Part shown: in pieces, positions 42,564 through 62,983 of the stretch
Layout of the letters: each line of letters opens with the position of its first letter
How positions within the stretch are numbered: the stretch's first letter is position 1
Source of the DNA: Klebsiella terrigena
Lineage (GTDB): Bacteria; Pseudomonadota; Gammaproteobacteria; Enterobacterales; Enterobacteriaceae
Direction of reading: 5' to 3'
Assembly (NCBI RefSeq): GCF_006539725.1
Contig: NZ_BJNO01000003.1
Span: forward strand, 310,001-374,000
DNA: 64,000 bases
The notes under the pieces: model-generated
Seen by the model: only the letters and a program-made list of their open reading frames with translations
Told to the model about the DNA's origin: nothing
Database searches by the model: none
Position numbers and translations under genes: made by a program

Positions 42564-42577
42564 TAACTAGTTGGTTA
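42564..42577 (+). promoter_or_regulatory. regulon palindrome 1 (isomerase gene)
   Basis: TAACTAGTTGGTTA, exact match to TAACNANNTNGTTA, within the longer near-palindrome 42559-42578. It lies 120 bp before the TIM-barrel isomerase start. The rest of the 275-bp gap from the yoaG-like stop shows nothing else beyond the terminator. Confidence 0.75.
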
Positions 42578-42697
42578 TGTGATGGCGATCGTATTTACCC
42601 AACACGTTCATTTCTATAATCCTTTGTTGAGAAAATTGATGCTCAATTTAGGTGGGTTTTACGTTTTTCAGGCTAAGCAAACAACGAGGTCGCCGAG

Positions 42698-43531
42698 ATG
42701 AATCAACCCGACAGTCGTAAACTGTCTCTTAATACCGCCACGGTGCGGCAGAAATGGCAGCTTAATCAGATCATCGAAGGCTGCGCCCGGCATGAGATCC
42801 GCGGCATTGCGCCGTGGCGCGACCAGGTCCAGGCGCTGGGGCTAAAAGAGTCAGCGCGTCTTATCCGGCATTACGAGCTGGCGCTAAGCGGCTATTGCCG
42901 CGGGGGGATGTTTCCCGGCAGCACCGCGCAGGAGCGCCGCGACAAGGCGCTGGACAACCGACGGGCAGTTGACGAAGCGCTGGAACTCGGCGCTCCGTGC
43001 CTGGTGCTGGTGGTTGGGGGGCTGCCCGCGGGGTCGAAGGATTTGTCCGCCGCCAGGCAGCAGGTGTGCGATGGCTTAAGCGAACTGCTGGAATACGCGC
43101 GCCCGCTCGGCATGCCGCTGGCCATTGAACCCCTGCATCCGATGTATGCCGCCGAGCGCGCCTGTGTAAACACCCTCGCGCAGGCAAACGATCTGTGCGA
43201 CCAGTTAGGTGATGAGGGGCTGGGTATCGCAGTCGATTTATACCACACCTGGTGGGATCCGCAGTTTCAGCAGCAGATTGAGCGCGCGGGCGCGGGCCGG
43301 CTGCTGGCTTTCCATATTTGCGACTGGCTGGTACCGACTGCGGATATGCTGCTGGATCGGGGCATGATGGGAGACGGGGTGATTGATATCCGCAGCCGTC
43401 GTCAGGCGCTGGAGGCGTTAGGCTATACGGGTTTTCACGAAGTGGAGATCTTTTCGCAGCATAACTGGTGGCAGCGGGAGCCGGATGAGGTGCTGGCGAT
43501 GTGTAAACAACGCCACCGCGAATTTGGCTAG
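42698..43531 (+). CDS. sugar phosphate isomerase/epimerase-type TIM barrel protein
   Basis: 277 residues of the AP-endonuclease-2-like family that includes IolE, IolI and hydroxypyruvate isomerase. Expected metal-site acids appear in PLAIEPLHPMY (Glu), GIAVDLYHTWW (Asp, His), FHICDW and GFHEVEIFS (Glu). It is a monocistronic unit at the left end of the island, ending against DUF993. In the family, these enzymes isomerise or epimerise keto-sugars, so it probably acts on a sugar intermediate of the pathway. The exact reaction is unknown. Confidence 0.82.
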   Translation: MNQPDSRKLSLNTATVRQKWQLNQIIEGCARHEIRGIAPWRDQVQALGLKESARLIRHYELALSGYCRGGMFPGSTAQERRDKALDNRRAVDEALELGAPCLVLVVGGLPAGSKDLSAARQQVCDGLSELLEYARPLGMPLAIEPLHPMYAAERACVNTLAQANDLCDQLGDEGLGIAVDLYHTWWDPQFQQQIERAGAGRLLAFHICDWLVPTADMLLDRGMMGDGVIDIRSRRQALEALGYTGFHEVEIFSQHNWWQREPDEVLAMCKQRHREFG

Positions 43532-43574
43532 AGGCGTGATTTACCCAGAGCCGTCGGCTCTGGGTCGTCGCCTC
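43531..43574. terminator. nested hairpin between convergent genes
   Basis: ACCCAGAGCC (43543-43552) and GGCTCTGGGT (43556-43565) form a perfect 10-bp stem with loop GTC; GAGGCG (43531-43536) and CGCCTC (43569-43574) add an outer stem. No T-tract; probably limits read-through between the isomerase and DUF993 genes. Confidence 0.55.
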
Positions 43575-43579
43575 TGTGC

Positions 43580-44743
43580 TCAGAGACCGTAAACCGTGAG
43601 CAGATTCTGCATTCGCCGGGTGGCCAGCGGCGGATTTTGCAGCAGGCCGGCCCGGTCGGCGAGGCGGAAAATTTCAGCATAATGGCCGATCTCCCGCGCC
43701 GACTGCATTCCACCGGCCATCGCGAAGTGGTTCTGATGGCCGTTGAGCCAGGCAAGGAACACAATGCCTGCTTTGTAATATTGCGTCGGTGCCTTGAAGA
43801 TTTCCCGTGACAGGGCAACGGTAGGATTCATCAGGCGGTAGTATTCGTTGCTATTGCCCAGCGCCAGTTCGTTAAGCGCGGCGGCGGCAACCGGAGCGAT
43901 GGCATCAAAAATGCCCAACAGCGCATGTGAATAATAGCCATCTTCCCCTTCAATCAGCTCGGGATAGTTGAAATCATCACCGGTATACATTTTAACCTGG
44001 GGCGGCAGGCGCTTGCGGAAGGCGACCTCTTTTTCCTTACTCAGGAGTGAAATCTTAATGCCCTCCACTTTATCAATGTTGTTACCGATGACCTCAAGCA
44101 CGGTATCAGCGGCGGCGTTGAAATCTGCCGATCCCCAGTATCCGCCCAGCGCAGGGTCAAACATCTCACCCAGCCAGTGAAGAATAATTTTGCCTTTGCT
44201 TTGTTCGAGCAGGCGGTTATATACGGCAAGGTAGTCCTGCGGTGATTTTGCCACTGCGGCCAGGGCCCGACTGGCCATCAGGATAATTTTACCGTCATGC
44301 TTCTCGACCAGCTCCATCTGCTCTTCATAGGCGGCGATGACCTGCGCCAGGGTGGTCGTGGCAGCAGCCTCCAACTGATCGGTACCGACCCCGGCGGCAA
44401 GATCGGCTCCCGGTACGGTTTTCGCCTCCTTCAGAGAGCGCACAATCAGCTCTTGCGCGATATTCCAGCTGACCCCCATGCCGCGCTGAGCGGTGTCCAT
44501 CGCCTCGGCAATATTAAATCCCAGTCGCCACAGATGGTGGCGGTAGGCCAGCGTCGAGTCCCAGTCAATGCGCGGATTGTTCAGCCAGTCCGCGCATTGA
44601 TGCCGGGGATCGATAACCACGTGCGCTGCGGCATAGGCAATCCGATTAAACGCGGGGACGATGGTGCAGGCTCGTTCGTCCGTCGTCACAAGGCGGTAAT
44701 CAGCGATGGTGCCTTGCGGCGTTGGCAGGTCGATTTTCAGCAT
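43580..44743 (-). CDS. DUF993 dihydrodipicolinate-synthase-like protein
   Basis: 387 residues of the DUF993 family, distantly related to DapA/aldolase-type TIM barrels. Notable segments are RLGFNIAEAMDTAQRGMGVSWN, KIILHWLGEMFDPALGGYWGS, EGIKISLLSKEKE (a candidate Schiff-base lysine) and QVKMYTGDDFNYPELI. AAGGG lies before the ATG at 44743. In several bacteria such genes accompany sugar-oxidising clusters, so a retro-aldol or lyase step on a keto-sugar acid is a reasonable guess but unproven. It converges with the isomerase gene and carries regulon palindrome 2 in its leader. Confidence 0.75.
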   Translation of the reverse strand: MLKIDLPTPQGTIADYRLVTTDERACTIVPAFNRIAYAAAHVVIDPRHQCADWLNNPRIDWDSTLAYRHHLWRLGFNIAEAMDTAQRGMGVSWNIAQELIVRSLKEAKTVPGADLAAGVGTDQLEAAATTTLAQVIAAYEEQMELVEKHDGKIILMASRALAAVAKSPQDYLAVYNRLLEQSKGKIILHWLGEMFDPALGGYWGSADFNAAADTVLEVIGNNIDKVEGIKISLLSKEKEVAFRKRLPPQVKMYTGDDFNYPELIEGEDGYYSHALLGIFDAIAPVAAAALNELALGNSNEYYRLMNPTVALSREIFKAPTQYYKAGIVFLAWLNGHQNHFAMAGGMQSAREIGHYAEIFRLADRAGLLQNPPLATRRMQNLLTVYGL

Positions 44744-44761
44744 ATTTATCCCTTCTTTAAG

Positions 44762-44775
44762 TATCTAATTGGTTA
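44762..44775 (-). promoter_or_regulatory. regulon palindrome 2 (DUF993 gene)
   Basis: TATCTAATTGGTTA, one mismatch (third base) to TAACNANNTNGTTA, 18 bp upstream of the DUF993 start codon. This close position would place it in the leader or over the transcription start. Confidence 0.65.
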
Positions 44776-44940: not shown

Positions 44941-44954
44941 TAACTATCTGGTTA
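44941..44954 (+). promoter_or_regulatory. regulon palindrome 3 (acyl-CoA dehydrogenase gene)
   Basis: TAACTATCTGGTTA, exact match, 67 bp before the acyl-CoA dehydrogenase start in the 277-bp divergent gap. The surrounding 44890-44970 is very AT-rich and probably holds the promoter. Confidence 0.75.
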
Positions 44955-45021
44955 TTTAATTAATGCGTTCGGATGTCGCAAAAAACAGGCGGCATGAATA
45001 ATAGCCGGCAGGAGAATGACC

Positions 45022-46155
45022 ATGTATTTGACCGAAACCCATCAACAGATCCGCGAAATGACCCGTAAGTTTGCCGACGAAGTGATTCGGCCTCAGGCAG
45101 AAGAGCTGGACAGAGAGGAGCGCTTTGCGGCCGAGATCTATCAACAGATGGGTGAGCTGGGCTTGTTTGGTATCACCGTTCCGGAAGAGTATGGCGGCGT
45201 TGGGCTGGACGCCGTTGCCTACGCCGTGGTGATGGAGGAGCTGTCGCGTGGCTACGCTTCGATTGCCGATCAGTGCGGCCTGGTGGAGCTGCTGGGTACG
45301 CTGTTGTCCAAATACGGTAACGATCCTCAGCGCGCCCAATGGCTGCCTGGGCTACTGAACGCGTCGCTGAAAGGGGCCTATTGCATCACTGAGGCCGGCG
45401 CCGGCTCTGACGTTTCGGGAATAAAAACCACCGCCACGCGCAGCGAAGAGGGCTGGGTGCTGAACGGCAGCAAGCTGTGGATCCATAATGCACCGGTCGC
45501 CGATGTGGCCTTCGTTCTGGCGCGCACCGATAAAGAAGCCGGCCACCGCGGGATGAGCATTTTTATTGTCGATTGCTCCCGCGACGGCGTCACGCGCGGC
45601 GCTAAAGAGCACAAGATGGGCCAGCGCTCGTCGCAGGTCGGCGAACTGCACTTCAGCCAGGTCAAGCTGCCGGCGGACGCGCTGCTGGGGCCGGAAAACC
45701 GCGGCTTCCATATTATGATGAGCGTGCTGAATAAAGGTCGGGTGGGGATTGGCGCGCTGGCGGTAGGCATCGCGCGCGCCGGTCTCGAGGCGGCGATTGA
45801 ATATGCGAAGCAGCGCGAACAGTTTGGCAAGCCGATTGCTGATTTCCAGGGCGTGCAGTTTATGCTGGCAGATATTGCCAAAGACACCGAAGCCGCTCGT
45901 CTGCTGGTGCACAGCGCGGCGTATAAAATTGATACAGACGCTCCGGACACCTCGATTGCCTGTTCAATGGCGAAGTGCTTTGCTGGCGACGCGGCGGTAC
46001 AGCACAGCGGCAACGCGGTGCAGATTTTTGGCGGCGGGGGCTATATTCGCGGCGTGGAGGTGGAACGTTTGTACCGCGATGCCAAGATAACCCAAATCTA
46101 TGAAGGAACTAACCAGATTCAGCGCATGATTATCGGGCGTAATTTGCTGGCATAG
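45022..46155 (+). CDS. acyl-CoA dehydrogenase
   Basis: 377 residues from ATG 45022 (the ATG at 45016 is one base from the GGAG site). A complete soluble FAD acyl-CoA dehydrogenase: AYCITEAGAGSDVSGIKTTA (flavin/substrate loop), KLWIHNAP, REQFGKPIADFQGVQFMLADI and QIYEGTNQIQRMIIGRNLL, where Glu361 is the catalytic base position of the SCAD/MCAD type. It forms a 2-enoyl-CoA and hands electrons to ETF; the ETF genes lie just downstream on the other strand. Enterobacteria usually use FadE, so this is an accessory short/branched-chain-type enzyme. Confidence 0.93.
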   Translation: MYLTETHQQIREMTRKFADEVIRPQAEELDREERFAAEIYQQMGELGLFGITVPEEYGGVGLDAVAYAVVMEELSRGYASIADQCGLVELLGTLLSKYGNDPQRAQWLPGLLNASLKGAYCITEAGAGSDVSGIKTTATRSEEGWVLNGSKLWIHNAPVADVAFVLARTDKEAGHRGMSIFIVDCSRDGVTRGAKEHKMGQRSSQVGELHFSQVKLPADALLGPENRGFHIMMSVLNKGRVGIGALAVGIARAGLEAAIEYAKQREQFGKPIADFQGVQFMLADIAKDTEAARLLVHSAAYKIDTDAPDTSIACSMAKCFAGDAAVQHSGNAVQIFGGGGYIRGVEVERLYRDAKITQIYEGTNQIQRMIIGRNLLA

Positions 46156-46412: not shown

Positions 46413-48065
46413 TCACATATTCGGGTAGTTGGGGCCGCTGCCTCCTTCGGGGACCGTCCAGACGATATTCTGCAACGGATCTTTGATATCGCAGGTTTTA
46501 CAGTGCACGCAGTTCTGCGCGTTAATCTGTAATCTGGGCTTGCCTTCCGGCGCGATAATTTCATACACCCCTGCCGGGCAATAACGCTGCGCTGGCTCAG
46601 CAAAACGAGGCAGCGTTTCCCGCAGCGAAAGTTCGGCGTCTTTCAGCCGAAGGTGACAGGGCTGATCTTCATCGTGAGACGTATTCGCCAGGTAAACGGA
46701 AGAGGGTTTATCAAAACTCAGCTGGTTATCCGGCTTCGGATAGCTGATGGGCGCGCTGCGTTCGGCCGTATCCAGCTGGAGATGATCCGCCCTGCGGTCG
46801 TGCAGCGTAAACGGCAGCCTGCCTTTAAACCAGTTCTGATCGATATAGTTGAGTGCGCCGCCTGCCACCGTTCCAAAACGATGCAGCAGCGGACCAAAGT
46901 TACGCGACTGCCACAGCTCTTCCCCCAGCCATGACTCGCTAAACGCCCGGGCAAAATCATCGAGGTTCCTTTTTTTATCAGGGGTTTGTACCAGCGCCCG
47001 ATAGACCGATTCGGCGGCCAGCATGCCGCTTTTCATCGCCGTGTGGCTGCCCTTAATCTTGGCGAAGTTGAGCGTTCCCGCATCGCAGCCAATCAGCAGC
47101 CCGCCGGGAAAGTGCATTTTTGGCAGCGCATTGATCCCCCCTTTGGTGATAGCGCGCGCACCGTAGGAGAGGCGCTTCCCGCCGCTGAGGGTTTCGCTAA
47201 AGGCCGGATGATGCTTCATGCGCTGAAACTCATCGAACGGGCTTAGCCAGGGGTTGCGGTAGTTAAGATCGACAATCAGCCCAACGACAGCCTGATTATT
47301 CCCCGTATGGTAGAGAAAACTCCCTCCCGACGCCCCGTCGCTCAGCGGCCAGCCGGAGGCGTGTACCACCTTTCCGGGACGGCTTTTTTGCGGAGCGATA
47401 TCCCACAGCTCTTTTATCCCCAACGCGTAGTGCTGCGCATCGCGGCCGGCATCCAGCTGATAGCGGGTGATTAGCTGTTTACCGAGGTGGCCGCGGCAGC
47501 CTTCGGCAAAAAGGGTATATTTCGCCAGTAGATTCATGCCTGGCGTAAAGCCGGGTTTTTCTTGCCCTGCGGCATTAACGCCCATATCGCCGGTGGTGAC
47601 GCCGGCGACGGTGCCCGCATCGTCGTACAGGATGCCGGCAGCGGCAAAGCCGGGGAAAATATCGACTCCCAGTGACTCCGCCTGGCGGGCCAGCCAGCGG
47701 CAAAAATCCCCCAGGCTAATGACGAAATTACCGGCGTTATGCATCGGGGCAGGGGTAAGGGCCGTTGGGACCTTCCACGCTTTTTCGCCATCGCGCAGCA
47801 GCAGCAGCTCATCTTGCGTAACCGGCGTCGCGAGCGGTGCGCCGAGCGACTGCCAGTCGGGGAAAAGCTCATTGAGCGCCCGGGGTTCGAAAAGCGCGCC
47901 GGAAAGAATATGCGCCCCAATCTCGGCGCCTTTTTCAATGACGCAAACGCTCAGCGGGCGCTGATCCTGCTGCGCCATCTGCATCAGCCGGCAGGCTGCC
48001 GACAGCCCGGCTGGGCCGCCACCGACGATGAGGACGTCAAATTCCATCGTTTCACGTTCCACCAT
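46413..48065 (-). CDS. electron transfer flavoprotein-ubiquinone oxidoreductase
   Basis: 550 residues from ATG 48065 (AAAGG seven bases upstream; a GTG at 48074 would add three residues). Full single-chain ETF-QO: FAD fold FDVLIVGGGPAGLSAACRL, GCRGHLGKQL, the membrane-contacting middle domain, and a C-terminal 4Fe-4S ferredoxin domain RYCPAGVYEI and NCVHCKTCDIKDPLQNIVW with the four cysteines. It passes electrons from reduced ETF into ubiquinone. This canonical form differs from the FixC proteins of enteric carnitine operons. Last gene of etfB-etfA-ETF-QO. Confidence 0.94.
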   Translation of the reverse strand: MVERETMEFDVLIVGGGPAGLSAACRLMQMAQQDQRPLSVCVIEKGAEIGAHILSGALFEPRALNELFPDWQSLGAPLATPVTQDELLLLRDGEKAWKVPTALTPAPMHNAGNFVISLGDFCRWLARQAESLGVDIFPGFAAAGILYDDAGTVAGVTTGDMGVNAAGQEKPGFTPGMNLLAKYTLFAEGCRGHLGKQLITRYQLDAGRDAQHYALGIKELWDIAPQKSRPGKVVHASGWPLSDGASGGSFLYHTGNNQAVVGLIVDLNYRNPWLSPFDEFQRMKHHPAFSETLSGGKRLSYGARAITKGGINALPKMHFPGGLLIGCDAGTLNFAKIKGSHTAMKSGMLAAESVYRALVQTPDKKRNLDDFARAFSESWLGEELWQSRNFGPLLHRFGTVAGGALNYIDQNWFKGRLPFTLHDRRADHLQLDTAERSAPISYPKPDNQLSFDKPSSVYLANTSHDEDQPCHLRLKDAELSLRETLPRFAEPAQRYCPAGVYEIIAPEGKPRLQINAQNCVHCKTCDIKDPLQNIVWTVPEGGSGPNYPNM

Positions 48066-48098
48066 AACCTCCACCTTTCGTTGCCTGCCCTTTGCGGA

Positions 48099-49028
48099 TC
48101 AGAGTTTCGCCACCAGCTGCGGCACAATTTCGAACAGATCGCCCACCAGGCTGTAGTCGGCGATTTTGAAAATAGGCGCCTCTTCATCGCTGTTGATGGC
48201 CACGATGACTCTGGCATTACTCATCCCCGCCAGGTGCTGAATCGCGCCGGAAATCCCCACCGCAATATAGAGCTCCGGCGCGACGATTTTTCCGGTCTGA
48301 CCGACCTGCAGATCGTTGGCGACCATACCCGCATCCACCGCCGCGCGGGATGCGCCCACGGCGCCGTGCAGCTTGTCGGCAAGCTGTGCGATAAGTGCAA
48401 AGTTTTCGCGGCTGCCCAGCGCACGGCCGCCGGAGACCACCACGCGGGCGGTAGAAAGCTGAGGACGATCCGATGGCACCAGCTCTTCGTGAATGAAGCG
48501 GGAAAGCGGCGGATTATCGATGCGGCTAATGTGCTCAATCGGTGCGGAGAATTCGCTTTTTTGCGCCGCCGGGAAGCTGGAGACGCGTAGGGTCAGTACC
48601 ACCAGCGGGTCGAGACTCTCGACGGTCGCGATGGCGCTACCCGCATAGATGGGGCGCCTGAACACGCTGGCGCTGACCACCGCAGTCACGTCGGAGATTT
48701 GTGCGACGTCGGCGAGGGCCGCCACGCGTGGCAGGATGTTTTTGCCGTTTGAAGTGGCGGCGGCAAGGATATGGCTGTAGCCCTCGCGCAGGGAGAAGAT
48801 CAGCGCGGCGACGTTTTCGGCCAGCTGGTTTTGAAAAACGCTATCGTCGGCGAGCAGCACCTTCGTTACGCCCGCGATGCGTGCCGCCTGCTCTGCGACC
48901 GTACGGCAATTTTTGCCCGACACCAGCAGCGTAATCTCGCCGCCCAGCTCGCGGGCGGCGCTCACCGCGTTAAAGGTCACCGCGTTGAGCTGGTTATTAT
49001 CATGTTCAACAAGGAGTAAAGTCGCCAT
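48099..49028 (-). CDS. etfA: electron transfer flavoprotein alpha subunit
   Basis: 309 residues. The signature for ETF alpha, LYIAVGISGAIQHLAGM followed by VIVAINSDEEAPIFKIADY, binds FAD, and VVVSGGRALGSRENF precedes it. With EtfB it forms the soluble one-electron-shuttle heterodimer between the acyl-CoA dehydrogenase and ETF-QO. One base separates it from etfB, indicating co-translation. Confidence 0.96.
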   Translation of the reverse strand: MATLLLVEHDNNQLNAVTFNAVSAARELGGEITLLVSGKNCRTVAEQAARIAGVTKVLLADDSVFQNQLAENVAALIFSLREGYSHILAAATSNGKNILPRVAALADVAQISDVTAVVSASVFRRPIYAGSAIATVESLDPLVVLTLRVSSFPAAQKSEFSAPIEHISRIDNPPLSRFIHEELVPSDRPQLSTARVVVSGGRALGSRENFALIAQLADKLHGAVGASRAAVDAGMVANDLQVGQTGKIVAPELYIAVGISGAIQHLAGMSNARVIVAINSDEEAPIFKIADYSLVGDLFEIVPQLVAKL

Positions 49029-49029
49029 A

Positions 49030-49779
49030 TCAAATCACCTTCGCTTCGTTTTTGAGCTTGTTCAGCAGTTCATCGACGCTGTCGACACGCACGCCGGCCT
49101 CGCGCGCCGGCGGGGCTTCGACCCGTAGCAGCGCCGTATGCGGGCGTAATTCAAGGCCAAACTCCTCTACAGGGAGGATGCTGAGCGGTTTCTTCTTGGC
49201 CTTCATCATGTTGGGCAGGGAGGTATAGCGTGGCTGGTTAAGGCGCAGGTCGGTGGTGATAATGGCCGGCAGCGTCAGCGAAAGAATCTGCAGGCCGCCG
49301 TCAATTTCACGGGTGACGATAGCCTGACCATTTTCAACGCGTAGCTCAGCGGCAAAGGTTCCCTGCGGGTAACCGCACAGGGCTGCGAGCATCTGCCCGG
49401 TCTGGTTGTTGTCGCCATCGATGGATTGTTTCCCCATCAGGATCAGCGACGGCTGTTCCTGGGCGACGACTTTCGCCAGCACTTTTGCCAGATTGAGCGG
49501 CTCGAGGGGCTGGGCGGTGGTGATGAGCAGCCCGCGATCGGCTCCCATTGCCAGCGCGCTGCGCAGCTGTTCCTGGGCCGCGTCATCACCGATGGTCACC
49601 ACCACAATCTCGCTGGCGATACCGAGCTCCTTCAGGCGAATGGCTTCTTCAACCGCAATCTCGCAGAACGGGTTGAGCGCCATTTTGGCGTTGGTGAGAT
49701 CAACCTGGCTACCATCGCTTTTGACGCGGATTTTAACGTTGTGGTCGACAACGCGCTTAATGGGGATGAGAACTTTCAT
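49030..49779 (-). CDS. etfB: electron transfer flavoprotein beta subunit
   Basis: 249 residues, starting MKVLIPIKRVVDHNVKIRVK as canonical ETF beta. NPFCEIAVEEAIRLKE is the conserved N-terminal segment; GKQSIDGDNNQTGQMLAALCG is the AMP/electron-path motif, and the recognition-loop leucine region LRLNQPRYTSLPNMMKAKKK follows. First gene of the ETF operon, with GAGAGGTAACG upstream and regulon palindrome 4 at 45 bp. Confidence 0.96.
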   Translation of the reverse strand: MKVLIPIKRVVDHNVKIRVKSDGSQVDLTNAKMALNPFCEIAVEEAIRLKELGIASEIVVVTIGDDAAQEQLRSALAMGADRGLLITTAQPLEPLNLAKVLAKVVAQEQPSLILMGKQSIDGDNNQTGQMLAALCGYPQGTFAAELRVENGQAIVTREIDGGLQILSLTLPAIITTDLRLNQPRYTSLPNMMKAKKKPLSILPVEEFGLELRPHTALLRVEAPPAREAGVRVDSVDELLNKLKNEAKVI

Positions 49780-49823: not shown

Positions 49824-49837
49824 TAACTATTTAGTTA
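49824..49837 (-). promoter_or_regulatory. regulon palindrome 4 (etf operon)
   Basis: TAACTATTTAGTTA, exact match, 44 bp before the etfB start and just after the GMC gene stop. It implies that the etf operon has its own regulated promoter as well as possible read-through from the ALDH-GMC operon. Confidence 0.75.
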
Positions 49838-49888: not shown

Positions 49889-51475
49889 TCAGTGTGACGC
49901 GATAATCAGATCGCTGGCTTTCTCGGCAATCATGATGGTAGGGGCGTTGGTGTTGGAGCTGACCAGGCTTGGCATTACCGACGAGTCCACCACGCGTAGC
50001 CCCTCAATGCCGCGAACGCGCAGCTGGGTATCGACGACCGACAGCGCATCGACGCCCATTTTGCAGGTGCCAACCGGGTGATAGCAGGTGCGCGCAAAGC
50101 GGCGAATGTAGTCTTCAAGCTCTTTATCACTTTGCGCTTCGTGTCCCGGCATATGCTCGCGGCGGATATACGGCGAGAAGGCGCTTTGCTGCATGATATC
50201 GCGCATCAGCTTGCAGCCTTCAATGGTCATTTTCATGTCGTAAGGATCGCTGAGATAGTTCGGGTCGATGAGCGGGGCGTCGCTGGCGTTAGCCGTGCGC
50301 AAAGTGACCCGGCCACGGCTGCGCGGACGCAGGAAATAGCTGTTAATCGTCACGCCGGAGCCGGAAGGCACCGGTTCGATACCGGCTTCCACGCCGGCTC
50401 CGGCCAGGAAGTGAATTTGGGTATCCGGGTTCACCGACTGCTTATCGGCGTACCAGAAGGCGCCGCCTTCGACGATATTCGAACAGACCGGCCCTTTACG
50501 GAACAGCAGATACTCCAGCCCGGCCCACATCATCCAGTGCGTCTTTTTGTATTTGTCATAGCTCAGGGCGTTGCCGAGCTCAAATATCAGATCGATGCCC
50601 ACGTGGTCCTGCAGATTCTCACCTACGCCCGGAAGATCGGCCGCGACCGTAATCCCTTTTTTAGCGAGCTCATCCGCCGCGCCAATCCCTGAAAGCTGCA
50701 GCAGTTTAGGGGAGCCGATCGCCCCGGCGCTGACGATAACTTCACAGCTGGCATGCAGCCGCTGCTGCTTGCCATCCTGGTAAATCTCCACGCCGACGGC
50801 GCGCTGGTTATCGATAATCAGCCGGGAAATATGGCAGCCGGTTTTAATGGTGAGATTACTGCGCCGGCTCGCGTCCTTCAGATATCCCACCGCCGTGGAG
50901 CAGCGGCGGGCATGGCGGGTGGTGGTCTGATAGAGACCGCAGCCGGCCTGGGTAGCGCCGTTGAAATCAGGATTGTAGGGCAACCCCGCCTGCTGGCAGG
51001 CTTTGCTGAAGGTTTTACTCATCAGGTTCGCGCCGACCGGGCTGGAGACGCCGAGCGGACCGCCGACGCCGTGCCAGGCGTTTGAAAAGGTATCGTTATC
51101 CTCGGACTTAATAAAATAGCGCTGGATATCGGCAAAAGACCAGCCGTCGCAGCCCTCATCTGCCGCCCAGCGGTCGTAGTCCGCCGGGGTGCCGCGGGTG
51201 AACACCTCCGCGTTGATAGAGCTACCGCCGCCCAATACCCGCCCCTGGGCAAACAGCAGTTCGCGATTGCCCAGCTGGGGCTGGGGCACCGTTTTATAGC
51301 CCCAGGTCAGCGGCCCGGAGGTGAGTTTGCTAAAACCGACCGGTAAATGGATGTAGGGGTTGCTGTCCTTTGGACCCGCCTCAACCAGCAGCACTTTACA
51401 GTGGCTATTTTCACTTAGGCGCGAGGCAAGGACGCTACCCGCCGAACCGCCGCCAATAATAATGTAGTCGTACAT
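49889..51475 (-). CDS. GMC-family FAD alcohol dehydrogenase (choline-dehydrogenase-like)
   Basis: 528 residues from ATG 51475 (AGAGGA six bases upstream; the frame extends to 51499). YDYIIIGGGSAGSVLASRL is the FAD-binding N-terminus, GRVLGGGSSINAEVFTRG is GMC signature 1 and GAIGSPKLLQLSGIG is signature 2. The C-terminal CYHPVGTCKMG holds the catalytic His, with a later Asn in SSNTNAPTIM. It oxidises a primary alcohol to an aldehyde with a quinone or respiratory acceptor. An aldehyde dehydrogenase gene lies 20 bp upstream, so the pair makes alcohol to acid. It resembles BetA and polyethylene-glycol dehydrogenase; the substrate is undetermined. Confidence 0.9.
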   Translation of the reverse strand: MYDYIIIGGGSAGSVLASRLSENSHCKVLLVEAGPKDSNPYIHLPVGFSKLTSGPLTWGYKTVPQPQLGNRELLFAQGRVLGGGSSINAEVFTRGTPADYDRWAADEGCDGWSFADIQRYFIKSEDNDTFSNAWHGVGGPLGVSSPVGANLMSKTFSKACQQAGLPYNPDFNGATQAGCGLYQTTTRHARRCSTAVGYLKDASRRSNLTIKTGCHISRLIIDNQRAVGVEIYQDGKQQRLHASCEVIVSAGAIGSPKLLQLSGIGAADELAKKGITVAADLPGVGENLQDHVGIDLIFELGNALSYDKYKKTHWMMWAGLEYLLFRKGPVCSNIVEGGAFWYADKQSVNPDTQIHFLAGAGVEAGIEPVPSGSGVTINSYFLRPRSRGRVTLRTANASDAPLIDPNYLSDPYDMKMTIEGCKLMRDIMQQSAFSPYIRREHMPGHEAQSDKELEDYIRRFARTCYHPVGTCKMGVDALSVVDTQLRVRGIEGLRVVDSSVMPSLVSSNTNAPTIMIAEKASDLIIASH

Positions 51476-51495
51476 GTCGGATCCTCTACCAAAAA

Positions 51496-55552: not shown

Positions 55553-55566
55553 TAACTAGTTAGTTA
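55553..55566 (-). promoter_or_regulatory. regulon palindrome 6 (CoA-transferase gene)
   Basis: TAACTAGTTAGTTA, exact match inside the perfect 16-bp palindrome AACTAACTAGTTAGTT (55550-55565). It is 36 bp upstream of the CoA-transferase start. Confidence 0.78.
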
Positions 55567-55650: not shown

Positions 55651-55664
55651 TAACTATCTTGTTA
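55651..55664 (+). promoter_or_regulatory. regulon palindrome 7 (aldo/keto reductase gene)
   Basis: TAACTATCTTGTTA, exact match, 34 bp upstream of the AKR start. Together with palindrome 6, about 100 bp away, it gives each of the two divergent genes its own site. Confidence 0.78.
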
Positions 55665-55698: not shown

Positions 55699-56727
55699 AT
55701 GGTTCCATCACAGAAGAATACATTTGGTCGTACAGATATTCAGGTCACGGCAATGGGCTACGGCGCGGCGCCGATTGGCAACATCTTTCGCCCGATCGGC
55801 GAGCAAGAGTCAGAAAAGATGATCCATCAGGCATGGGACAGCGGTCTGCGCTATTTTGATACGGCACCGCTGTACGGACATGGCCTGAGCGAAGCGAGGA
55901 TTGGGCACGGTCTGCGCTGGTATCCGCGCGATGAATACGTGCTCTCCAGCAAAGTCGGCCGTCTGCTGAAGCCGAAAAAACGCGGTGAATTTGATTCCGG
56001 GGCGTGGGTCAATCCGCTGCCGTTTGAGGCGATTTTTGATTATTCCTACTCTGCGACCATGCGTTCGATTGAAGACAGCCTGCAGCGCATGGGGCTGGAG
56101 CATATCGATATCGCCTTCATTCACGACTGTGATGTTTATACCCACGGCGATAAGCAGCCTCACTATTTTCGTCAGGCGATGGACGGCGCGTGGCGTGCGC
56201 TGGCGCAGCTTCGGGATGAAGGGGTAATTAAAGCCGTCGGTATGGGCGTCAACGAGTGGGAGGTTTGTCATGCGGCGCTGCAGGAGGCCGACTTCGACTG
56301 CTTCCTGCTGGCCGGGCGCTATACGCTGCTGGAGCAGGAGGCGTTAAAAGCGTTTCTGCCGCTGTGCGAGGAACGTAACGCGGCGGTGGTGATCGGCGGA
56401 GGATTCAACAGCGGGATTCTGGCGACCGGGGCGGTTGAGAACGCGAAGTACAACTACGGCCCGGCGAGCCAGGCGATTCTGGCAAAGGTGAGAGAAATTG
56501 AAAATGTCTGCCGCGATTACCAGGTCAGCCTACCGGCGGCCGCGCTTCAGTTTGTGCTGGCTCATCCGGCGGTACCCACTATTATTCCCGGCACACGTAC
56601 GGTGGCGCAGCTGGAAAACTGCCTGGAGTGGATTGCCGCGCCGATCCCGGATGATTTCTGGCGTACGCTGCAGCAGCAGGGGCTGCTGGATGAGGGCGCG
56701 CCCACGCCGGCAGACCGTCAGCCCTGA
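55699..56727 (+). CDS. aldo/keto reductase, D-threo-aldose 1-dehydrogenase type
   Basis: 342 residues with AGGAGGG before the ATG. AKR tetrad: YFDTAPLYGHGLSE (Asp and Tyr), VLSSKVGRL (Lys) and IDIAFIHDCD (His). The subgroup (long insert PLPFEAIFDYSYSATMRSIEDSLQRMGLEHID) matches L-fucose/D-threo-aldose and galactose 1-dehydrogenases that oxidise free aldoses to lactones with NAD(P). In this island it argues for a sugar being released or imported. No lactonase is visible in the window. Confidence 0.85.
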   Translation: MVPSQKNTFGRTDIQVTAMGYGAAPIGNIFRPIGEQESEKMIHQAWDSGLRYFDTAPLYGHGLSEARIGHGLRWYPRDEYVLSSKVGRLLKPKKRGEFDSGAWVNPLPFEAIFDYSYSATMRSIEDSLQRMGLEHIDIAFIHDCDVYTHGDKQPHYFRQAMDGAWRALAQLRDEGVIKAVGMGVNEWEVCHAALQEADFDCFLLAGRYTLLEQEALKAFLPLCEERNAAVVIGGGFNSGILATGAVENAKYNYGPASQAILAKVREIENVCRDYQVSLPAAALQFVLAHPAVPTIIPGTRTVAQLENCLEWIAAPIPDDFWRTLQQQGLLDEGAPTPADRQP

Positions 56728-56742
56728 ATAAAGAAACGGCAT

Positions 56743-56806: not shown

Positions 56807-57850
56807 TCACTCCTGCGCGATGCGCAGCTGGATTTTCAAATACTGCGGCTGCGCGAGCAGGGAGGTGAAAACCTGCTGAATATCCTCCAGCGGGTGGACG
56901 GACTGGCAAAAAGGAGCGGTAATAAATCGTTGATGCTGCAGCAGATGCAGCGCCTGGTGCATATCTTCTCCCATCCCGGCTACGCTGCCCTGAATCCTTT
57001 GCTCTTTTAAAATAATCTCCAGCGGCCTGATGGCGATGTCGGTTTCGCCGTCGGTTAAGCCAAAGGCCAGCAGCCGTCCGCCGGGACGCATAAACGTCAG
57101 CGCCTGTTTGTAGAGCTCGGGATGGCCGACGCTTTCTATGACCACATCGGCGCCGCGGCCCTGGGTGAGCTGCTTTATTTGCTCCAGCGCGCGTTCCGGG
57201 TCGGTGATGACGCAGTCTGCACCGCACTGCCCGGCGAGCTCGGCGCGCTGCGGATTCAGCTCGACGGCAATAATCGGAGCGGCTCCCAGCAGGCGCGCCA
57301 TCTGAATATGCATATTGCCCACCGGGCCTGCGCCGATGACCACTACCGACTCTGCCACGCTGAGGCCGATTTTTTTACCGGCGCGCACCACGCAGGAGAA
57401 CGGCTCGGTCAAACAGGCAACGCTATCCGTAATCTCGTCGCCGACGGGAATCACCAGGCGGGCCGGAACGGCCACGTACTGTGCAAAAGCGCCGTGGGTG
57501 TGGATGCCGAGCTGGCGGATCTCCGGGCAGTTTAGCAACTCGTTGCGCCGGCAATAATAGCAGTGGCCGCAGCTGATATTGATATCGGCAACCACCCGCT
57601 GGCCCGGCGCCAGGGTCGCAACGCGACGGCCCACGGCAACAATTTCCCCGCTAAACTCATGGCCGGGAATTAACGGTAGCTTATCCTGGGCATAGTGGCC
57701 GTTATAGATATGGATATCCGTTCCACAGATCGAACACTGGCTGACGCGAATGAGGACCTCGTCATCGCCGTATTCGGGGACCGGAACCTGGCGTATTTCG
57801 AAATTTTTGGCTGCGGTAAGCACCGCTGCTTTCATTAATTTGGGGATCAT
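56807..57850 (-). CDS. zinc-dependent alcohol/polyol dehydrogenase
   Basis: 347 residues of the medium-chain dehydrogenase family. Catalytic zinc: CSICGTDIHIYNGHY and PGHEFSGEIVAVG; structural zinc: CGHCYYCRRNELLNC; nucleotide fold VVIGAGPVGNMHIQMARLLG. It is closest in style to sorbitol, threonine and galactitol-phosphate dehydrogenases. It is the last gene of the operon headed by the sugar-binding protein, 12 bp after a permease gene, so it probably acts on the imported compound or its first derivative. GGAG precedes the ATG at 57850. Confidence 0.88.
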   Translation of the reverse strand: MIPKLMKAAVLTAAKNFEIRQVPVPEYGDDEVLIRVSQCSICGTDIHIYNGHYAQDKLPLIPGHEFSGEIVAVGRRVATLAPGQRVVADINISCGHCYYCRRNELLNCPEIRQLGIHTHGAFAQYVAVPARLVIPVGDEITDSVACLTEPFSCVVRAGKKIGLSVAESVVVIGAGPVGNMHIQMARLLGAAPIIAVELNPQRAELAGQCGADCVITDPERALEQIKQLTQGRGADVVIESVGHPELYKQALTFMRPGGRLLAFGLTDGETDIAIRPLEIILKEQRIQGSVAGMGEDMHQALHLLQHQRFITAPFCQSVHPLEDIQQVFTSLLAQPQYLKIQLRIAQE

Positions 57851-57862
57851 GGCCGGCTCCGG

Positions 57863-58879
57863 TTATTTAACGGTAGAAATTTTAGATCGATCGATGGTCA
57901 TCGCAATGGCCGCAATCATCAGCGCCCCGAAGAAGATCTGCTGCGCCTGCGCTTCAACGTTAAGGTAGGTCATACTGGTGCGAATGACGGCGACGATCAG
58001 AGTGCCGATAAGCGTGCTCAGTACGCCCCCCACGCCGCCGGTCAGCGGCGTGCCGCCTAGCAGCACCGCGACAATCGCCGGGAGCAGGAACTGATCGGCC
58101 ATCGTCGGCGATGCGCCGGAAAGACGGGTCGCCAGCAGCACTCCGGCGGCGGCGGCGAACGCGCCGGCGATGGCAAAGGTGAGGATCTTCACCTTGACCA
58201 CCTTCACGCCGCTGGCGAGCGCGGCGGATTCCCCGGCGCCAAGCGCCTTCATATGGCGTCCCAGCGCGGTACGTCTCTCCATCAGCAGCGCCAGCAGCAG
58301 CAGTACGGCGGCGATAACGATCTCCGTCGGTAGCGTAAAGACGGTGGTGGTCATCCAGCCCACCGTCTGGCTGCGAATATCCCCTGGAATATAAAACGCG
58401 CGCTGTCCGGAAATCACCTGTCCAGTAGCGTAGGCAATTCCTCCGACGGCGAGGGTGGTAATGAAGGACGATATTTTAAAACGCGTGTGCACCCAGCCGG
58501 ATACGGCGCCGAACAGCGCGCCGATAGCCAGCGTAAGCGGAATAGCCAGCACGCCAATTTGCGATAGCAGAATGACCAGCACGACCGTTGACATGCTGGC
58601 AATCGACTGGGCGGATAAATCTATCCCGCCGATATAAATCACAAAGGTCATGCCAATCGCCATAATAAACAGCGTAGATGCATCCTGCAGCAGCTGGAAT
58701 ATATTGTCGGGCTTAAGAAAATCCGGGTTATAGAGGCTGACGAGGGCCACTAATACTGCCAGGGTCAGTATCGGTAAATAACGGGTGATTTTTTCACGCC
58801 CGGTCAGCGGCGGCCGCGTCGGGCTACCGATATTATTGTTTGTCGGCACTGCTAATGAATCAGAACGGATTATTTTCAT
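57863..58879 (-). CDS. sugar-type ABC transporter permease (RbsC-like), second permease
   Basis: 338 residues from ATG 58879, 20 bp after the ATPase stop; an upstream ATG at 58924 would overlap that gene. BPD_transp_2 family: MAIGMTFVIYIGGIDLSAQSIASMSTV and LLGGTPLTGGVGGVLSTLIGTLIV are the RbsC/XylH signature regions; about ten membrane segments. A second, different permease of the same family is in the operon, so the channel is probably a heterodimer rather than the RbsC homodimer. Confidence 0.9.
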   Translation of the reverse strand: MKIIRSDSLAVPTNNNIGSPTRPPLTGREKITRYLPILTLAVLVALVSLYNPDFLKPDNIFQLLQDASTLFIMAIGMTFVIYIGGIDLSAQSIASMSTVVLVILLSQIGVLAIPLTLAIGALFGAVSGWVHTRFKISSFITTLAVGGIAYATGQVISGQRAFYIPGDIRSQTVGWMTTTVFTLPTEIVIAAVLLLLALLMERRTALGRHMKALGAGESAALASGVKVVKVKILTFAIAGAFAAAAGVLLATRLSGASPTMADQFLLPAIVAVLLGGTPLTGGVGGVLSTLIGTLIVAVIRTSMTYLNVEAQAQQIFFGALMIAAIAMTIDRSKISTVK

Positions 58880-58898
58880 GGAGATGGGCCTTAATAAC

Positions 58899-60413
58899 CT
58901 AGACGAAATGCTGCAATAATTCATATTGCTCCGGGCGCTTCTCTTCGCAGCCGGTAAACTGATGCATCAGTCGGCCGTCCTTAAAAATAGCGATGGTGTG
59001 GGCGAGGCCAATAGCCTCCTCCAGAGAGTCGGCTATCAAAATCACGCCGCACTGCTCATCGGTGAAGTCGCGTACTAAGTCATAGACGTCCTCTTTGGCA
59101 CCGATATCGAGGCCGCGGGTAGGGTGGTCAAGCAGGATGATTTTCGCCTCAGCGGTCCGCCATTTCGACAGCACCACCTTTTGCTGATTGCCGCCGGAAA
59201 GCTTGCTGCACTGCGTATCAATACTGGCGGTTTTAATCGATAGCTTTTTAACCCACTGATTTGCCAGCCTGCGCTCGTGATGGACCTGCAGCAGTCCGCC
59301 GCGGGAATAGTCCTGCAGATTGGCGAGAGTAATATTTTCCACCACCGACATGCCTTCGACGATACCCTCGATTTTGCGCTCACGAGGGATATATCCCACC
59401 CCCTCAGCGATGCTGTGGCTGGGGCTAAATTTGCGTACCGGTCTACCGTTAAGGATCACCTCTCCCCGTTCCGGCTGCATCAATCCGAAGATAGAGCGGA
59501 TGATTTCCTCGGTACCGGCGCCATCGGTTCCGACCAGCGCCAGCACTTCGCCGGCGTGTAGCGACAGCGAGACGTCTTTATAATGGCCCGGCAGCGAAAT
59601 ATTCTTTAACTCGACTAAGGTCGTCTCTTTGTTAATTCGGTGCTTACGATGTTCGCGATAGTAGCGTTCGTCGATATCGCGACCGACCATCTGGCGCTGA
59701 ATATTCACCACATCGAACCGGTCGCGGGTGAGCATATCCATAACCTGCCCATCCTTCATGACGTAGATGCGATCGGACAGCGCCATCACTTCATCAAGGC
59801 GATGCGAAACGAAAATAAAGGAGGCCCGGCTTTTGAGCTCTCTGACCAGTTCAAACAGCAGTTCTATTTCCTGGGTCGGCAGGACCGAAGTCGGTTCGTC
59901 GAGCAGGATAATTAAATGGCCGCTGCTTCTCTCCTCAAGGGTCAGGACCTTCGCCAGCTCTACCAGCTGACGTTGGGTAAAGGAGAGCTCGGAAGTCATT
60001 GTCTGCGGATCGATATCCAGTTTGACTTTCGCCAGCTGCTTTCTGGCCGCCGTCGCCATCTTTTTCCAGTTAATCACACCCAGCTTTTTAAACGGCTGTT
60101 CAAAACCGAGAAAAATATTCTCCATTACGCTCAGATTGGAGATAAGCGACTGCTCCTGAAATACCATCCCGATACCCTGCATCATGGCATCGCGCGGGGT
60201 GCGAAAGACGACCGGCTGACCGTTGATCAGCAATTCGCCTTTATCATGCTGATAGGCGCCGTAAATTATCTTCATCAGCGTCGATTTTCCGGCGCCATTT
60301 TCACCGACCAATCCGACAATTTCACCGGGATTAATTTGCAGATTGATATTCTGCAAGGCCAGTACGCCCGGGAACGATTTACCCACATTTTTGAATTCAA
60401 GCATAATCGTCAC
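58899..60413 (-). CDS. sugar ABC transporter ATPase (RbsA/XylG type)
   Basis: 504 residues, two fused ATPase domains. First: Walker [10 protein letters not shown], signature [15 protein letters not shown], Walker [13 protein letters not shown]. Second: Walker A degenerate (GTDGAGTEE, lysine lost), signature [14 protein letters not shown], Walker [13 protein letters not shown] with Asp-His in place of Asp-Glu. This asymmetry is usual for RbsA-type proteins, whose second site is often inactive. Overlaps the upstream permease gene by 4 bp. Confidence 0.93.
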
Positions 60414-61375
60414 TTCACTATTTGCAGACGTTTACGATTAGTGACTAATGCCACCGAGATGATAACCAGAGCGCCCAGAACGCCTTGCTGGATATAGGTC
60501 GGGAAGCCGACCAGCACCATGCCGTTGTTAATGACGTTGATAATCAGTACCCCAACCAGGCTTTGCCACACGCCGCCGTTGCCGCCCATTAAGGAGGTGC
60601 CACCGACGACGACGGAGGTGATGGCGATAAAGGTATAGCCATCGCCAAGGTTGCTGGCGACCGAGCCCAGGCGGGCGACGGCAAAGACGGCACCCAGGCC
60701 GTAAAACACGCCGGCCAGCGCAAAACCAAGCACGCGAATACGTTTTACCGACAGACCAGACGCATAGGCCTGGTGTTCGCCGCCACCGATGGCATAAAAA
60801 TTACGCCCCAGCGCGGTATAGCGCTGAATAAACCAGGCAAATAGCAGGGCTGCCCCGGCGAGATAGACCATCAGCGGGAAATCAAAAATACGCTCGGTCA
60901 GCAGTAATCTGAATACCGGGTCGGGGAGAGGAATACGTTCGCCGCCGGTCGTCACCATCGTGACGCCAATTAAGCTAAAACCGATACCCAGGCTAACCAG
61001 GAATGAGGGGATTTTGAGCTTCACGTGAATAAGGCCGTTGATCAGCCCGCAGGCTGCAGAAATAAGGATCGCGGCGGGGATCGCCAAATAACCGAGTTCG
61101 TTAAAACCGCCCAGCTTCACCATGATGATTGCCAGCATGGAGCCGCAGAAAGCCATAATGCCTTCAATTGACAGGTCGATCGAACCCATAATAATGATAA
61201 ACGTCACGCCAATGGCAATCATTAACGGCGCGGCGCTGGCGGTCAGTAAACGTGAGAAGTTACGCACCGATAAAAAACCCGGGTAAACAACGCTGATGAT
61301 GGTGCAAAGCAGCAGCAGCACCATCAGCGGCGCCCATTTGCGCAAAAAATCTTTGTAGCCTGAATGTGATGACAT
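60410..61375 (-). CDS. sugar-type ABC transporter permease, first permease
   Basis: 321 residues of the RbsC-like BPD_transp_2 family: APLMIAIGVTFIIIMGSIDLSIEGIMAFCGSM and VVVGGTSLMGGNGGVWQSLVGVLII. About eight to ten membrane segments. It follows the binding-protein gene by 69 bp. It is only distantly similar to the second permease of the operon. Confidence 0.9.
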   Translation of the reverse strand: MSSHSGYKDFLRKWAPLMVLLLLCTIISVVYPGFLSVRNFSRLLTASAAPLMIAIGVTFIIIMGSIDLSIEGIMAFCGSMLAIIMVKLGGFNELGYLAIPAAILISAACGLINGLIHVKLKIPSFLVSLGIGFSLIGVTMVTTGGERIPLPDPVFRLLLTERIFDFPLMVYLAGAALLFAWFIQRYTALGRNFYAIGGGEHQAYASGLSVKRIRVLGFALAGVFYGLGAVFAVARLGSVASNLGDGYTFIAITSVVVGGTSLMGGNGGVWQSLVGVLIINVINNGMVLVGFPTYIQQGVLGALVIISVALVTNRKRLQIVK

Positions 61376-61444
61376 GGTCGACCTTCACTCATTGAATTTA
61401 TAACGTCTTCATCGACAATAAATATCTGCAGAAGAGTGGGGGAA

Positions 61445-62560
61445 CTACAATTTGCGATATTGAATTGGCCCCTTCGACGCCTGCCAGAAATTATTCCAGT
61501 CGTTCACCGGCGTATTGACGATATTGTCCTGATACCATTTCTGCGCATCGTCTTTGGTTATCATGATCGTCGGACCATAAAATTCGCGATGCTCATGCGG
61601 CTCAGCGGAGGGTTTGAAGCTGCCGATAGCCGCATGGTGAGCCAGTGAAAGCGCAATGCCTCCTGCCCAGTACGGGTCGGTGCTTACGGTGCAGAGGATT
61701 TCACCGCTGATGCACAGCTTGACGGCGTCCGGGGTGCCGTCGTAGGAGACAATCGGGATCTGTCCCGCCAGCCCTTCGGCACGCAGAGCCTCAATAATGC
61801 CGAGGGTCATACTGTCGTTGGAGGAGAAGATACCTTTGATATCATCCCCGAAGCGGGTGAGCATCGTCGACATCATGTCGTTGGCTTTCGAGGTGCTCCA
61901 GTCCGCATCCTGCCAGTCCAGCAGCTTGATATCCGGGTTCTCCTTCAGTTTGTGCATCAGCCCCGCTTTACGCTCAATCGCCGGGACGTTGGAGGCGATC
62001 CCTCCCAGCCCGACAATCCCGCCTTTTTTCCCCATTGCGTCAAAGAGCAGCTGCGCACACTGCTGCGCCGGTTCGAAATCCGACCAGCTGATGTGGGCCA
62101 CGTAGTTGTCACCAAAATCCCAGGGATGCAGATCGTCGGTTTTGTTCCAGATGGTGGTAATAAACGCGCCGCGCTGCTGGCAGGCGGTCACGACAGCCCG
62201 CGCGTTAGGGGCATCGTTAGGATCGCAGCCGATCGCCAGCTTCCCTTCAGTTTTGGAAAGCAGGGCTTTGATATCCGAAAGAACTTTCTCGTTATTGCCA
62301 CCGTTAATCAGGCTTACCATGGTCGCGTTTTGCGTTTTCGCATAAGACTTCCCGCCGGCGGCAATCGCGTTCCAGTAGGAGTTGTCAGGATCTCGATAGC
62401 CCCAGGCCAGCGTGAGGTTTCCTCCTTCAGCCGCCATGGCTTTTGAGAGCGGGCTGATAAGCGGAAGCGCTGCCATGCCGCCGATGCCCAGGGCACTTTT
62501 CAGCAGGAATTCACGTCGGCTAATCACGCTTTGTTCAACGAATTTTTTAATAAATGACAT
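61445..62560 (-). CDS. ABC transporter sugar-binding protein with Tat signal
   Basis: 371 residues. The N-terminus contains SRREFLLKSALGIGG (Arg15-Arg16), a twin-arginine motif followed by a hydrophobic stretch and an AMA-A cleavage site near residue 43, so export is probably by Tat in the folded state. The mature part is a periplasmic binding protein 4-like sugar binder (KALLSKTEGKLAIGCDPND, GGIVGLGGIASNVPAIERKAG, GIFSSNDSMTLGIIEAL, VSYDGTPDAVKLCISGEI). First gene of the SBP-permease-ATPase-permease-ADH operon; palindrome 8 is upstream. Confidence 0.9.
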   Translation of the reverse strand: MSFIKKFVEQSVISRREFLLKSALGIGGMAALPLISPLSKAMAAEGGNLTLAWGYRDPDNSYWNAIAAGGKSYAKTQNATMVSLINGGNNEKVLSDIKALLSKTEGKLAIGCDPNDAPNARAVVTACQQRGAFITTIWNKTDDLHPWDFGDNYVAHISWSDFEPAQQCAQLLFDAMGKKGGIVGLGGIASNVPAIERKAGLMHKLKENPDIKLLDWQDADWSTSKANDMMSTMLTRFGDDIKGIFSSNDSMTLGIIEALRAEGLAGQIPIVSYDGTPDAVKLCISGEILCTVSTDPYWAGGIALSLAHHAAIGSFKPSAEPHEHREFYGPTIMITKDDAQKWYQDNIVNTPVNDWNNFWQASKGPIQYRKL

Positions 62561-62628
62561 AGCGATATTTCCTGTCTTTTCGATTTACATGAAGGCGTTA
62601 ACCCGATTGAAAATACGTTACATGTAAA

Positions 62629-62642
62629 TAACTAATTACTTA
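62629..62642 (-). promoter_or_regulatory. regulon palindrome 8 (ABC importer operon)
   Basis: TAACTAATTACTTA, one mismatch to TAACNANNTNGTTA, 68 bp upstream of the binding-protein start. The flanks extend the symmetry (GTAA on one side, TTAC on the other) much as at palindrome 9. The whole 483-bp divergent gap to the SDR gene is AT-rich; a 96-codon open frame in it (62764-63054) looks spurious. Confidence 0.68.
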
Positions 62643-62885
62643 CAAGTTGATGATATATCACCCGAGAAAGTAATTGGCAATGAAGCGCTTTGCGATTGGT
62701 TTACATGGCATTTTCATCCGACCAAAAAACGCCTAGCGCCCTGTTTTTTCTTATTATTTTTAAATGTTCCCTTTGCGAATGAGTAAATGCTTTTTCACGG
62801 CTGTTTTCGCGGGGGTTAGCACTTATCAATATGATTTATATTATTTTTTATCAATTTTACCCTCCCGGGCTGTTTTGCTTGCGTT

Positions 62886-62901
62886 TGCGATATCAGTCAC
62901 A
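62886..62901. promoter_or_regulatory. candidate CRP site in the ABC/SDR divergent region
   Basis: TGCGA-TATCAG-TCACA differs from TGTGA-N6-TCACA at one base. It sits between the two regulon palindromes, about 325 bp from the binding-protein start and 143 bp from the SDR start. Catabolite activation would suit a sugar-importer island. Confidence 0.55.
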
Positions 62902-62969
62902 AAGATTTTGCTGGCAATCTTCACCCGTCAGGCGTGGATTGTGCAGATCTCATATTTGCATATTGTAAG

Positions 62970-62983
62970 TAACTATTTATTTA
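62970..62983 (+). promoter_or_regulatory. regulon palindrome 9 (SDR-glycerate kinase unit)
   Basis: TAACTATTTATTTA, one mismatch, 60 bp upstream of the SDR ATG at 63044. Outer arms TTGTAA (62963-62968) and TTACAA (62981-62986) reinforce the dyad. Confidence 0.68.

Follow-up and report, generated by a model that had tools for sequence, protein, structure and literature searches.

Nine operator-like palindromes point to a local TetR-type regulon covering a catabolic island in Klebsiella terrigena

The stretch of DNA discussed here, further called the window, comprises 64,000 nucleotides of Klebsiella terrigena (contig NZ_BJNO01000003.1, positions 310,001 to 374,000) and contains a 23-kb catabolic gene set, an island with nine palindromes before its operons. 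These palindromes, variants of the 14-bp motif TAACNANNTNGTTA, are very probably the operators of the TetR-family protein encoded within the island (TetR_N and TetR_C_29 domains, positions 53343-53987), so that the island would form a single regulon. The assignment to this particular TetR is strongly supported, yet inferred rather than demonstrated: it is based on the adjacency, co-occurrence and co-variation of the sites with the regulator. The regulon type itself is known, namely a local TetR-family regulon; what is apparently undescribed is the pathway under its control.

The palindromic sites

The motif is found exactly at six positions (42564, 44941, 49824, 53168, 55553 and 55651) and with one mismatch at three (44762, 62629 and 62970). 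All nine coordinates and their exact or one-mismatch status had been given in the original prediction and are reproduced on rescanning. The site at 42564 scores 16.5 bits with R2, a profile built without any window site (see below); the others are supported by the match scan, by R2 and by conservation.

42564..42577, operator-like site TAACTAGTTGGTTA, before the TIM-barrel isomerase gene
44762..44775, site TATCTAATTGGTTA, 18 nt before the DUF993 gene
44941..44954, site TAACTATCTGGTTA, before the acyl-CoA dehydrogenase gene
49824..49837, site TAACTATTTAGTTA, before the electron transfer flavoprotein (ETF) operon
53168..53181, site TAACCATATGGTTA, between the aldehyde dehydrogenase (ALDH)-GMC operon and tetR
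55553..55566, site TAACTAGTTAGTTA, before the CoA-transferase gene; overlapped by the one-mismatch match 55549
55651..55664, site TAACTATCTTGTTA, before the aldo/keto reductase (AKR) gene
62629..62642, site TAACTAATTACTTA, before the ATP-binding cassette (ABC) importer operon
62970..62983, site TAACTATTTATTTA, before the short-chain dehydrogenase (SDR) operon

With at most one mismatch, 16 places match in the window, while 100 dinucleotide shuffles give a mean of 0.63 and a maximum of 3; the earlier estimate of about 0.06 exact hits in 64 kb is right for ten fixed bases. Seven of the 16 are additional one-mismatch matches. Three of them lie in the left part of the window (1291, 17583 and 33372), and the left 42 kb, in which no copy had been noted, is indeed devoid of exact matches but not of these weaker ones. 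Two others are found inside the DUF993 gene (44071) and in the tetR leader (53232), and the last two, 42560 and 55549, overlap the sites 42564 and 55553 at an offset of 4 bp, which results in 18-bp double palindromes. At the one-mismatch level the remaining seven listed sites are single palindromes.

The distance between site and start codon ranges from 18 to 161 nt, close to what had been stated, and is 18-68 nt for seven of the nine sites. The idea of nine transcription units with one copy each is slightly off, since nine sites serve ten start regions: 53168 is common to the ALDH-GMC operon and tetR, whose start codons lie 133 and 161 nt away, and 42564 has a single start codon, at 120 nt. 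The element is better described as a palindrome of 20-22 bp, in which the flanking TAA/TTA appears largely conserved.

Conservation and specificity

The island also occurs in Enterobacter sp. 10-1, Raoultella ornithinolytica, Dryocola boscaweniae, Enterobacter sp. R1(2018), R. planticola and a Raoultella sp. (loci L059 to L063 and L075), with a TetR that is 95-100% identical, and in a further family genome, G087 (locus L046), with a TetR of 83% identity. In intergenic alignments of the window and these seven islands, with N and gaps in the N-masked Enterobacter sp. R1(2018) sequence set aside, invariant columns number 96 of 112 in the eight alignable sites and 447 of 1245 in the remaining intergenic sequence. 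The count for the sites is slightly low because a gap at 44941 puts the Dryocola row out of register. Each one-mismatch site retains its own variant (10/14 invariant columns for 44762, 14/14 for 62629 and 13/14 for 62970), and the TATC variant of 44762 is retained in all eight aligned islands; site 49824 is invariant in 14/14 columns, with Enterobacter sp. R1(2018) partly masked by N. Site 42564 falls outside the alignments: the sequence of the named loci starts only within the isomerase gene, which in G087 follows directly behind that of the acyl-CoA dehydrogenase. A comparison of orthologous islands had been proposed along with the original prediction, and in it all eight alignable sites are conserved in the seven other islands.

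Two observations can be added on these alignments. The element TTGTAATGAAATTGTTA in the tetR leader (53230-53246) has the same sequence in all of the eight aligned enterobacterial islands but G087, where a single base is substituted; neither of the profiles R1 and R2 (below) reports it, and it could represent a promoter or a second, weaker operator. The G087 island carries, between the CoA-transferase gene and tetR (L046, 12219-15455), a colicin/pyocin-like open reading frame (ORF) of 666 aa and a tail-spike-like ORF of 379 aa, both named by reading, which constitute an insertion inside the island.

The genome of the strain itself (5.51 Mb in 54 contigs) contains ten exact matches to TAACNANNTNGTTA, six of them in the island, and two to the reversed control pattern. 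Of the four matches off the island, three fall within genes, named by reading as M1-aminopeptidase-like, EmrA-like and fimbrial-type, and the fourth is intergenic. This last site, TAACGAGATCGTTA, is situated between MgtE-like and NikR-like genes (G000:C10:66022-66035, locus L013). The same 14-mer is present in at least four of 30 genomes (G001, G153, G242 and G236); it is taken here as a different element, probably a site of another regulator. Raw exact counts (22 in G003 and 2 in G004, against 10 here) fail to separate genomes with and without the island; the degenerate 14-mer is therefore weak and a profile is needed. One-mismatch counts (183 against 83 for the control, among the matches listed) are too noisy to use.

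Profile R1, made from the nine window sites and six of G087, ranks the nine sites first in the genome at 17.6-21.3 bits, the next place having 10.8 bits (150 of 1004 first-look candidates scored). As R1 contains the window sites, R2 was built only from sites of Vibrio, G087, Phyllobacterium and Endobugula. It again places the nine sites first, at 15.4-20.6 bits, followed by a place of 11.5 bits (150 of 869 first-look candidates scored), and within the window, with filters off, the best place other than the nine reaches 6.3 bits. A genome scan, likewise suggested with the original prediction, thus reveals no comparable cluster elsewhere in the genome, whether by exact pattern, R1 or R2, with part of the candidates scored. 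As in a local regulon, the sites precede most units of the locus and are rare in the rest of the genome to the extent that first-look candidates were scored.

Sites beside diverged regulators

From 217 relatives 80 named loci were kept, collected by means of TetR; six of these are near-identical enterobacterial islands. Upstream of tetR, at a distance of up to 400 bp, 61 of the 80 loci have the 12-bp core of the motif at one mismatch or fewer, where mononucleotide shuffles would give 7.7. For the exact core the numbers are 19 and 0.34, with the six enterobacterial islands included in the 19.

A position weight matrix derived from alignment A4 was scanned over 71 loci (L064-L138 minus L075, L081, L098 and L105, the last three left out as training loci), in which TetR is 47-64% identical. 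The extended AAGTAACYANNTRGTTACTT-type motif is found upstream of pathway genes in 62 of them. Of the 130 places of at least 12 bits, 107 fall in zones reaching up to 300 bp upstream from pathway genes, which represent 3.5% of the sequence; 60 column-permuted palindromic controls have a mean of 3.7 and a maximum of 31. At thresholds of 8, 10 and 14 bits, 125, 115 and 94 places lie in the zones; the highest control counts are 61, 22 and 15. R2 gives 75 matches in the same loci at E up to 0.5. Alignment A4 lacks the Vibrio site 9918, and in A3 some rows were re-oriented or dropped, among them the G087 site L046:10119.

The locus of Vibrio penaeicida (L098; TetR 59% identical) has seven places before six units: ETF:ubiquinone oxidoreductase, CoA-transferase, GMC/tetR (two places), AKR, an operon of glyoxalase and an SBP_bac_1-type importer, and SDR. 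This importer is unlike that of the window, yet the site is present. These places were found with R1, and six of the seven were then used in R2. In other species, the sites are conserved together with regulator and targets, the exceptions being family genomes G004 and G107, which have a variant site.

In the family survey, a TetR at E up to 1e-30 is encoded in 65 of 295 genomes, but one of about 56% identity or more and nearly full length only in K. terrigena, G087, G107 and G004; that of G054 is partial. R2, at E up to 0.1, has 10 matches (8 places) in K. terrigena and 7 (6 places) in G087; all other family genomes have at most five, the top one being G220 (0.8 Mb). Site 62629 of the window was missed in this run, which used stricter filters. 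No R2 match occurs in the three same-genus genomes searched, all without such a TetR. A more distant group, with a TetR of 40-46% identity, has CAACTAATTrGTTA in two of the six loci examined (G075 and G271).

Gene content of the island

The genes of the island, with the basis of each assignment, are as follows.

42698..43531, + strand, sugar-phosphate isomerase/epimerase-like TIM barrel, AP_endonuc_2 (Pfam)
43580..44743, - strand, DUF993 protein (Pfam), homologue of the solved, uncharacterised chain 4dnh_A
45016..46155, + strand, acyl-CoA dehydrogenase, ACAD (Pfam, NCBIfam)
46413..49779, - strand, operon of ETF beta, ETF alpha and ETF:ubiquinone oxidoreductase (ETF-QO), named by reading the sequences, no family library
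49889..53034, - strand, operon of ALDH (51496-53034) and GMC oxidoreductase (49889-51499) (Pfam, NCBIfam)
53343..53987, + strand, TetR-family regulator, TetR_N and TetR_C_29 (Pfam), the proposed repressor
54008..55516, - strand, CoA-transferase (Pfam, NCBIfam)
55699..56727, + strand, AKR (Pfam)
56807..62560, - strand, ABC importer operon: substrate-binding protein (SBP) 61445-62560 (Pfam), permease 60410-61375, ATPase 58899-60413 and permease 57863-58924 (by reading and from homologues elsewhere)
56807-57850, - strand, in the same operon, zinc alcohol dehydrogenase-like protein (NCBIfam)
63044..63823, + strand, SDR (Pfam)

TetR is the only transcription-factor gene recognised in the island. 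The protein has the TetR_N helix-turn-helix (PF00440, 50.1 bits against a cut-off of 24) and a C-terminal ligand/dimerisation domain (PF17938, TetR_C_29, 137.4 bits against 26.2), and, as is characteristic of the family, there is a palindromic operator-like site near its own gene (53168), conserved across loci. In some other loci, homologues of the ETF operon genes are found next to TetR. The SDR ORF opens at GTG 62987, 4 bp past the palindrome, and has an ATG at 63044; the latter is probably the true start, because of a conserved gap in the aligned islands. Past the right edge of the window (L011) follow a glycerate-kinase-like gene (start 63844) and a second AKR-like gene, both named by reading, and there is no match with at most one mismatch beyond the SDR operon in the rest of the fetched 18 kb.

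Between the SBP and SDR genes lies TGCGATATCAGTCACA (62886-62901), which is largely conserved in the aligned islands and resembles a CRP site. This suggests catabolite control.

Proposed mechanism and alternatives

In the proposed mechanism, a TetR dimer would bind each AAGTAACYANNTRGTTACTT-type site of 20-22 bp and block transcription of the island units, possibly including tetR; the block is suggested by the location of seven of the nine sites at 18-68 nt from a start codon. A pathway intermediate would release TetR, upon which importer, oxidation enzymes, CoA activation, acyl-CoA dehydrogenation with its own ETF chain, and glycerate kinase would be switched on together. Repression seems the likely mode of action, given the position of most sites and the habit of the TetR family, and the relief by an intermediate is proposed by analogy. 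Two conserved hexamers are suggestive only: TTGACA at 44915, upstream of site 44941, is kept in seven of the eight aligned rows, and TATGAT at 63004, downstream of 62970, in six; they would place both operators over promoter elements.

A variant of this mechanism, the probability of which overlaps with that of the operator assignment itself, is that TetR, once bound to the sites, acts as an activator, either throughout or on some units while repressing others. The sites 42564 and 53168, at 120-161 nt from their start codons, would fit such a role, and promoter overlap could not be shown; the seven closer sites, however, lie where TetR-family proteins usually repress, and we consider this variant rather unlikely. 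It is more improbable still that the palindromes are operators of another regulator encoded elsewhere, with the island's TetR controlling something else. Sequence by itself proves no particular binding protein, and as the loci were gathered through TetR, clusters without it fell outside the sample. Nevertheless, the site adjoins tetR in enterobacteria, in Vibrio and in alphaproteobacterial loci, a cluster of sites is restricted, in the family survey, to genomes that have a close TetR orthologue, and the site differs where TetR has diverged. An origin by chance in AT-rich intergenic DNA, or as a repeat element, would be in line with the AT-rich flanks and with the R2 matches in 49 of 295 family genomes (40 of the 47 besides K. 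terrigena and G087 being 2 Mb or less). It is contradicted by the window shuffles, the comparison with neighbouring intergenic columns and the permuted profiles; as far as sequence can decide, chance and AT bias are ruled out, and the probability left to this explanation is negligible.

Several observations weigh against the view of the nine sites as operators of one TetR repressor. An off-island site may have been missed by the genome profile searches, in which only part of the first-look candidates were scored, and R2 is not wholly independent, because G087 is a fairly close relative. The R2 matches in those 49 family genomes belong here as well. The genomes G004 and G107, with a TetR that is 54-57% identical, have no R2 match and instead contain the variant TAACGAACTrGTTC near the TetR gene, which indicates that specificity drifts. 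Among the 71 distant loci, nine are without an in-zone place of 12 bits and 23 of the 130 places fall outside the zones, some before genes absent from the query set; furthermore, these hits are not independent, since many of the loci are related to one another. With respect to repression, consensus promoter scans yield no clear excess over shuffles (5 against 5.2 and 10 against 8.1), so that overlap of site and promoter, and hence repression, is not established, and 53168 (133 and 161 nt) and 42564 (120 nt) are farther away than is typical for steric blocking.

Related systems

The top named NCBIfam model for the island TetR is that of RutR, the TetR-family regulator of pyrimidine utilisation in E. 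coli, at scores well below membership (59.9 bits against a cut-off of 368 for TIGR03613, 56.2 against 230 for NF011584). The RutR consensus, TTGACCAnnTGGTCAA, has the n2-centred layout of the island sites. RutR is described as recognising a palindrome some 16 bp long in the promoter regions of rutR/rutAG and carAB (PMC10891134, in the part consulted); its site and its target genes differ from those of the island TetR.

The overlapping palindromes 42560/42564 and 55549/55553, offset by 4 bp, could seat two dimers and in this respect recall QacR, of which the operator is reportedly bound by two dimers. The other seven listed sites, single at one mismatch, are unlike such a cooperative layout.

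With regard to gene content, the deoxyribonate cluster of Klebsiella michiganensis resembles the island in combining a CoA-transferase with a glycerate kinase and in proceeding through sugar-acid CoA intermediates, according to the passages that describe it (PMC6365646). These passages also list a CoA-synthetase, a beta-hydroxyacyl-CoA dehydrogenase and a thiolase (PMC6365646), and, unlike the island, they name no DUF993, GMC, ETF or acyl-CoA dehydrogenase. To judge from this part of the source, the two clusters differ in gene content.

A common pathway

The original prediction tied an acyl-CoA branch to a sugar branch, and this link gains support from co-localisation outside the enterobacteria. 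Of 74 non-enterobacterial loci, 29 combine at least one acyl-CoA gene (ACAD, CoA-transferase, ETF, ETF-QO) with at least one sugar-type gene (ABC, DUF993, isomerase, AKR) at up to about 10 kb from this TetR. Counted separately, acyl-CoA genes are represented in 33 loci and sugar-type genes in 68, and two loci have neither; several loci are clipped by contig ends. As the two sets stand together beside TetR in these 29 loci, they look like one pathway. The gene order is shuffled among loci: in L092 the genes for ACAD, SDR, DUF993, isomerase and ETF stand in a row with the ABC genes across tetR, L104 has a MaoC-type dehydratase after ACAD, and L107 contains a glycerate-2-kinase-like gene (208 bits, below the model cut-off of 550).

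More distant TetR groups adjoin other genes: shikimate-transporter-like and shikimate-dehydrogenase-like genes in L050, and Gfo/Idh/MocA and FAD_binding_2 genes in L053. SDR and isomerase are the members in common.

It is possible, and here suggested only tentatively, that the regulon delimits an undescribed and widespread proteobacterial pathway. A polyhydroxylated substrate would be imported, its primary alcohol oxidised to a carboxylate (GMC, ALDH) and a CoA thioester formed, followed by beta-oxidation-like steps (ACAD with its own ETF chain, the MaoC hydratase in L104, SDR) and cleavage, with DUF993 as the candidate C-C lyase and glycerate as a product. The sister clusters with shikimate-type genes hint at a cyclitol or carbasugar as substrate. 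In the literature searched, with the terms used, we found no description of this pathway or gene combination, no paper naming DUF993, none of the motif strings and no paper identifying the substrate, the deoxyribonate cluster being different.

Through the operator motif, a pathway found in Alpha-, Beta- and Gammaproteobacteria alike becomes easily accessible to experiment. The sites allow its gene content to be read, its inducer to be sought and a function to be assigned to DUF993, of which one member (4dnh) is solved but uncharacterised. The TetR of the island would act as the common switch of a widespread breakdown pathway that is apparently undescribed.

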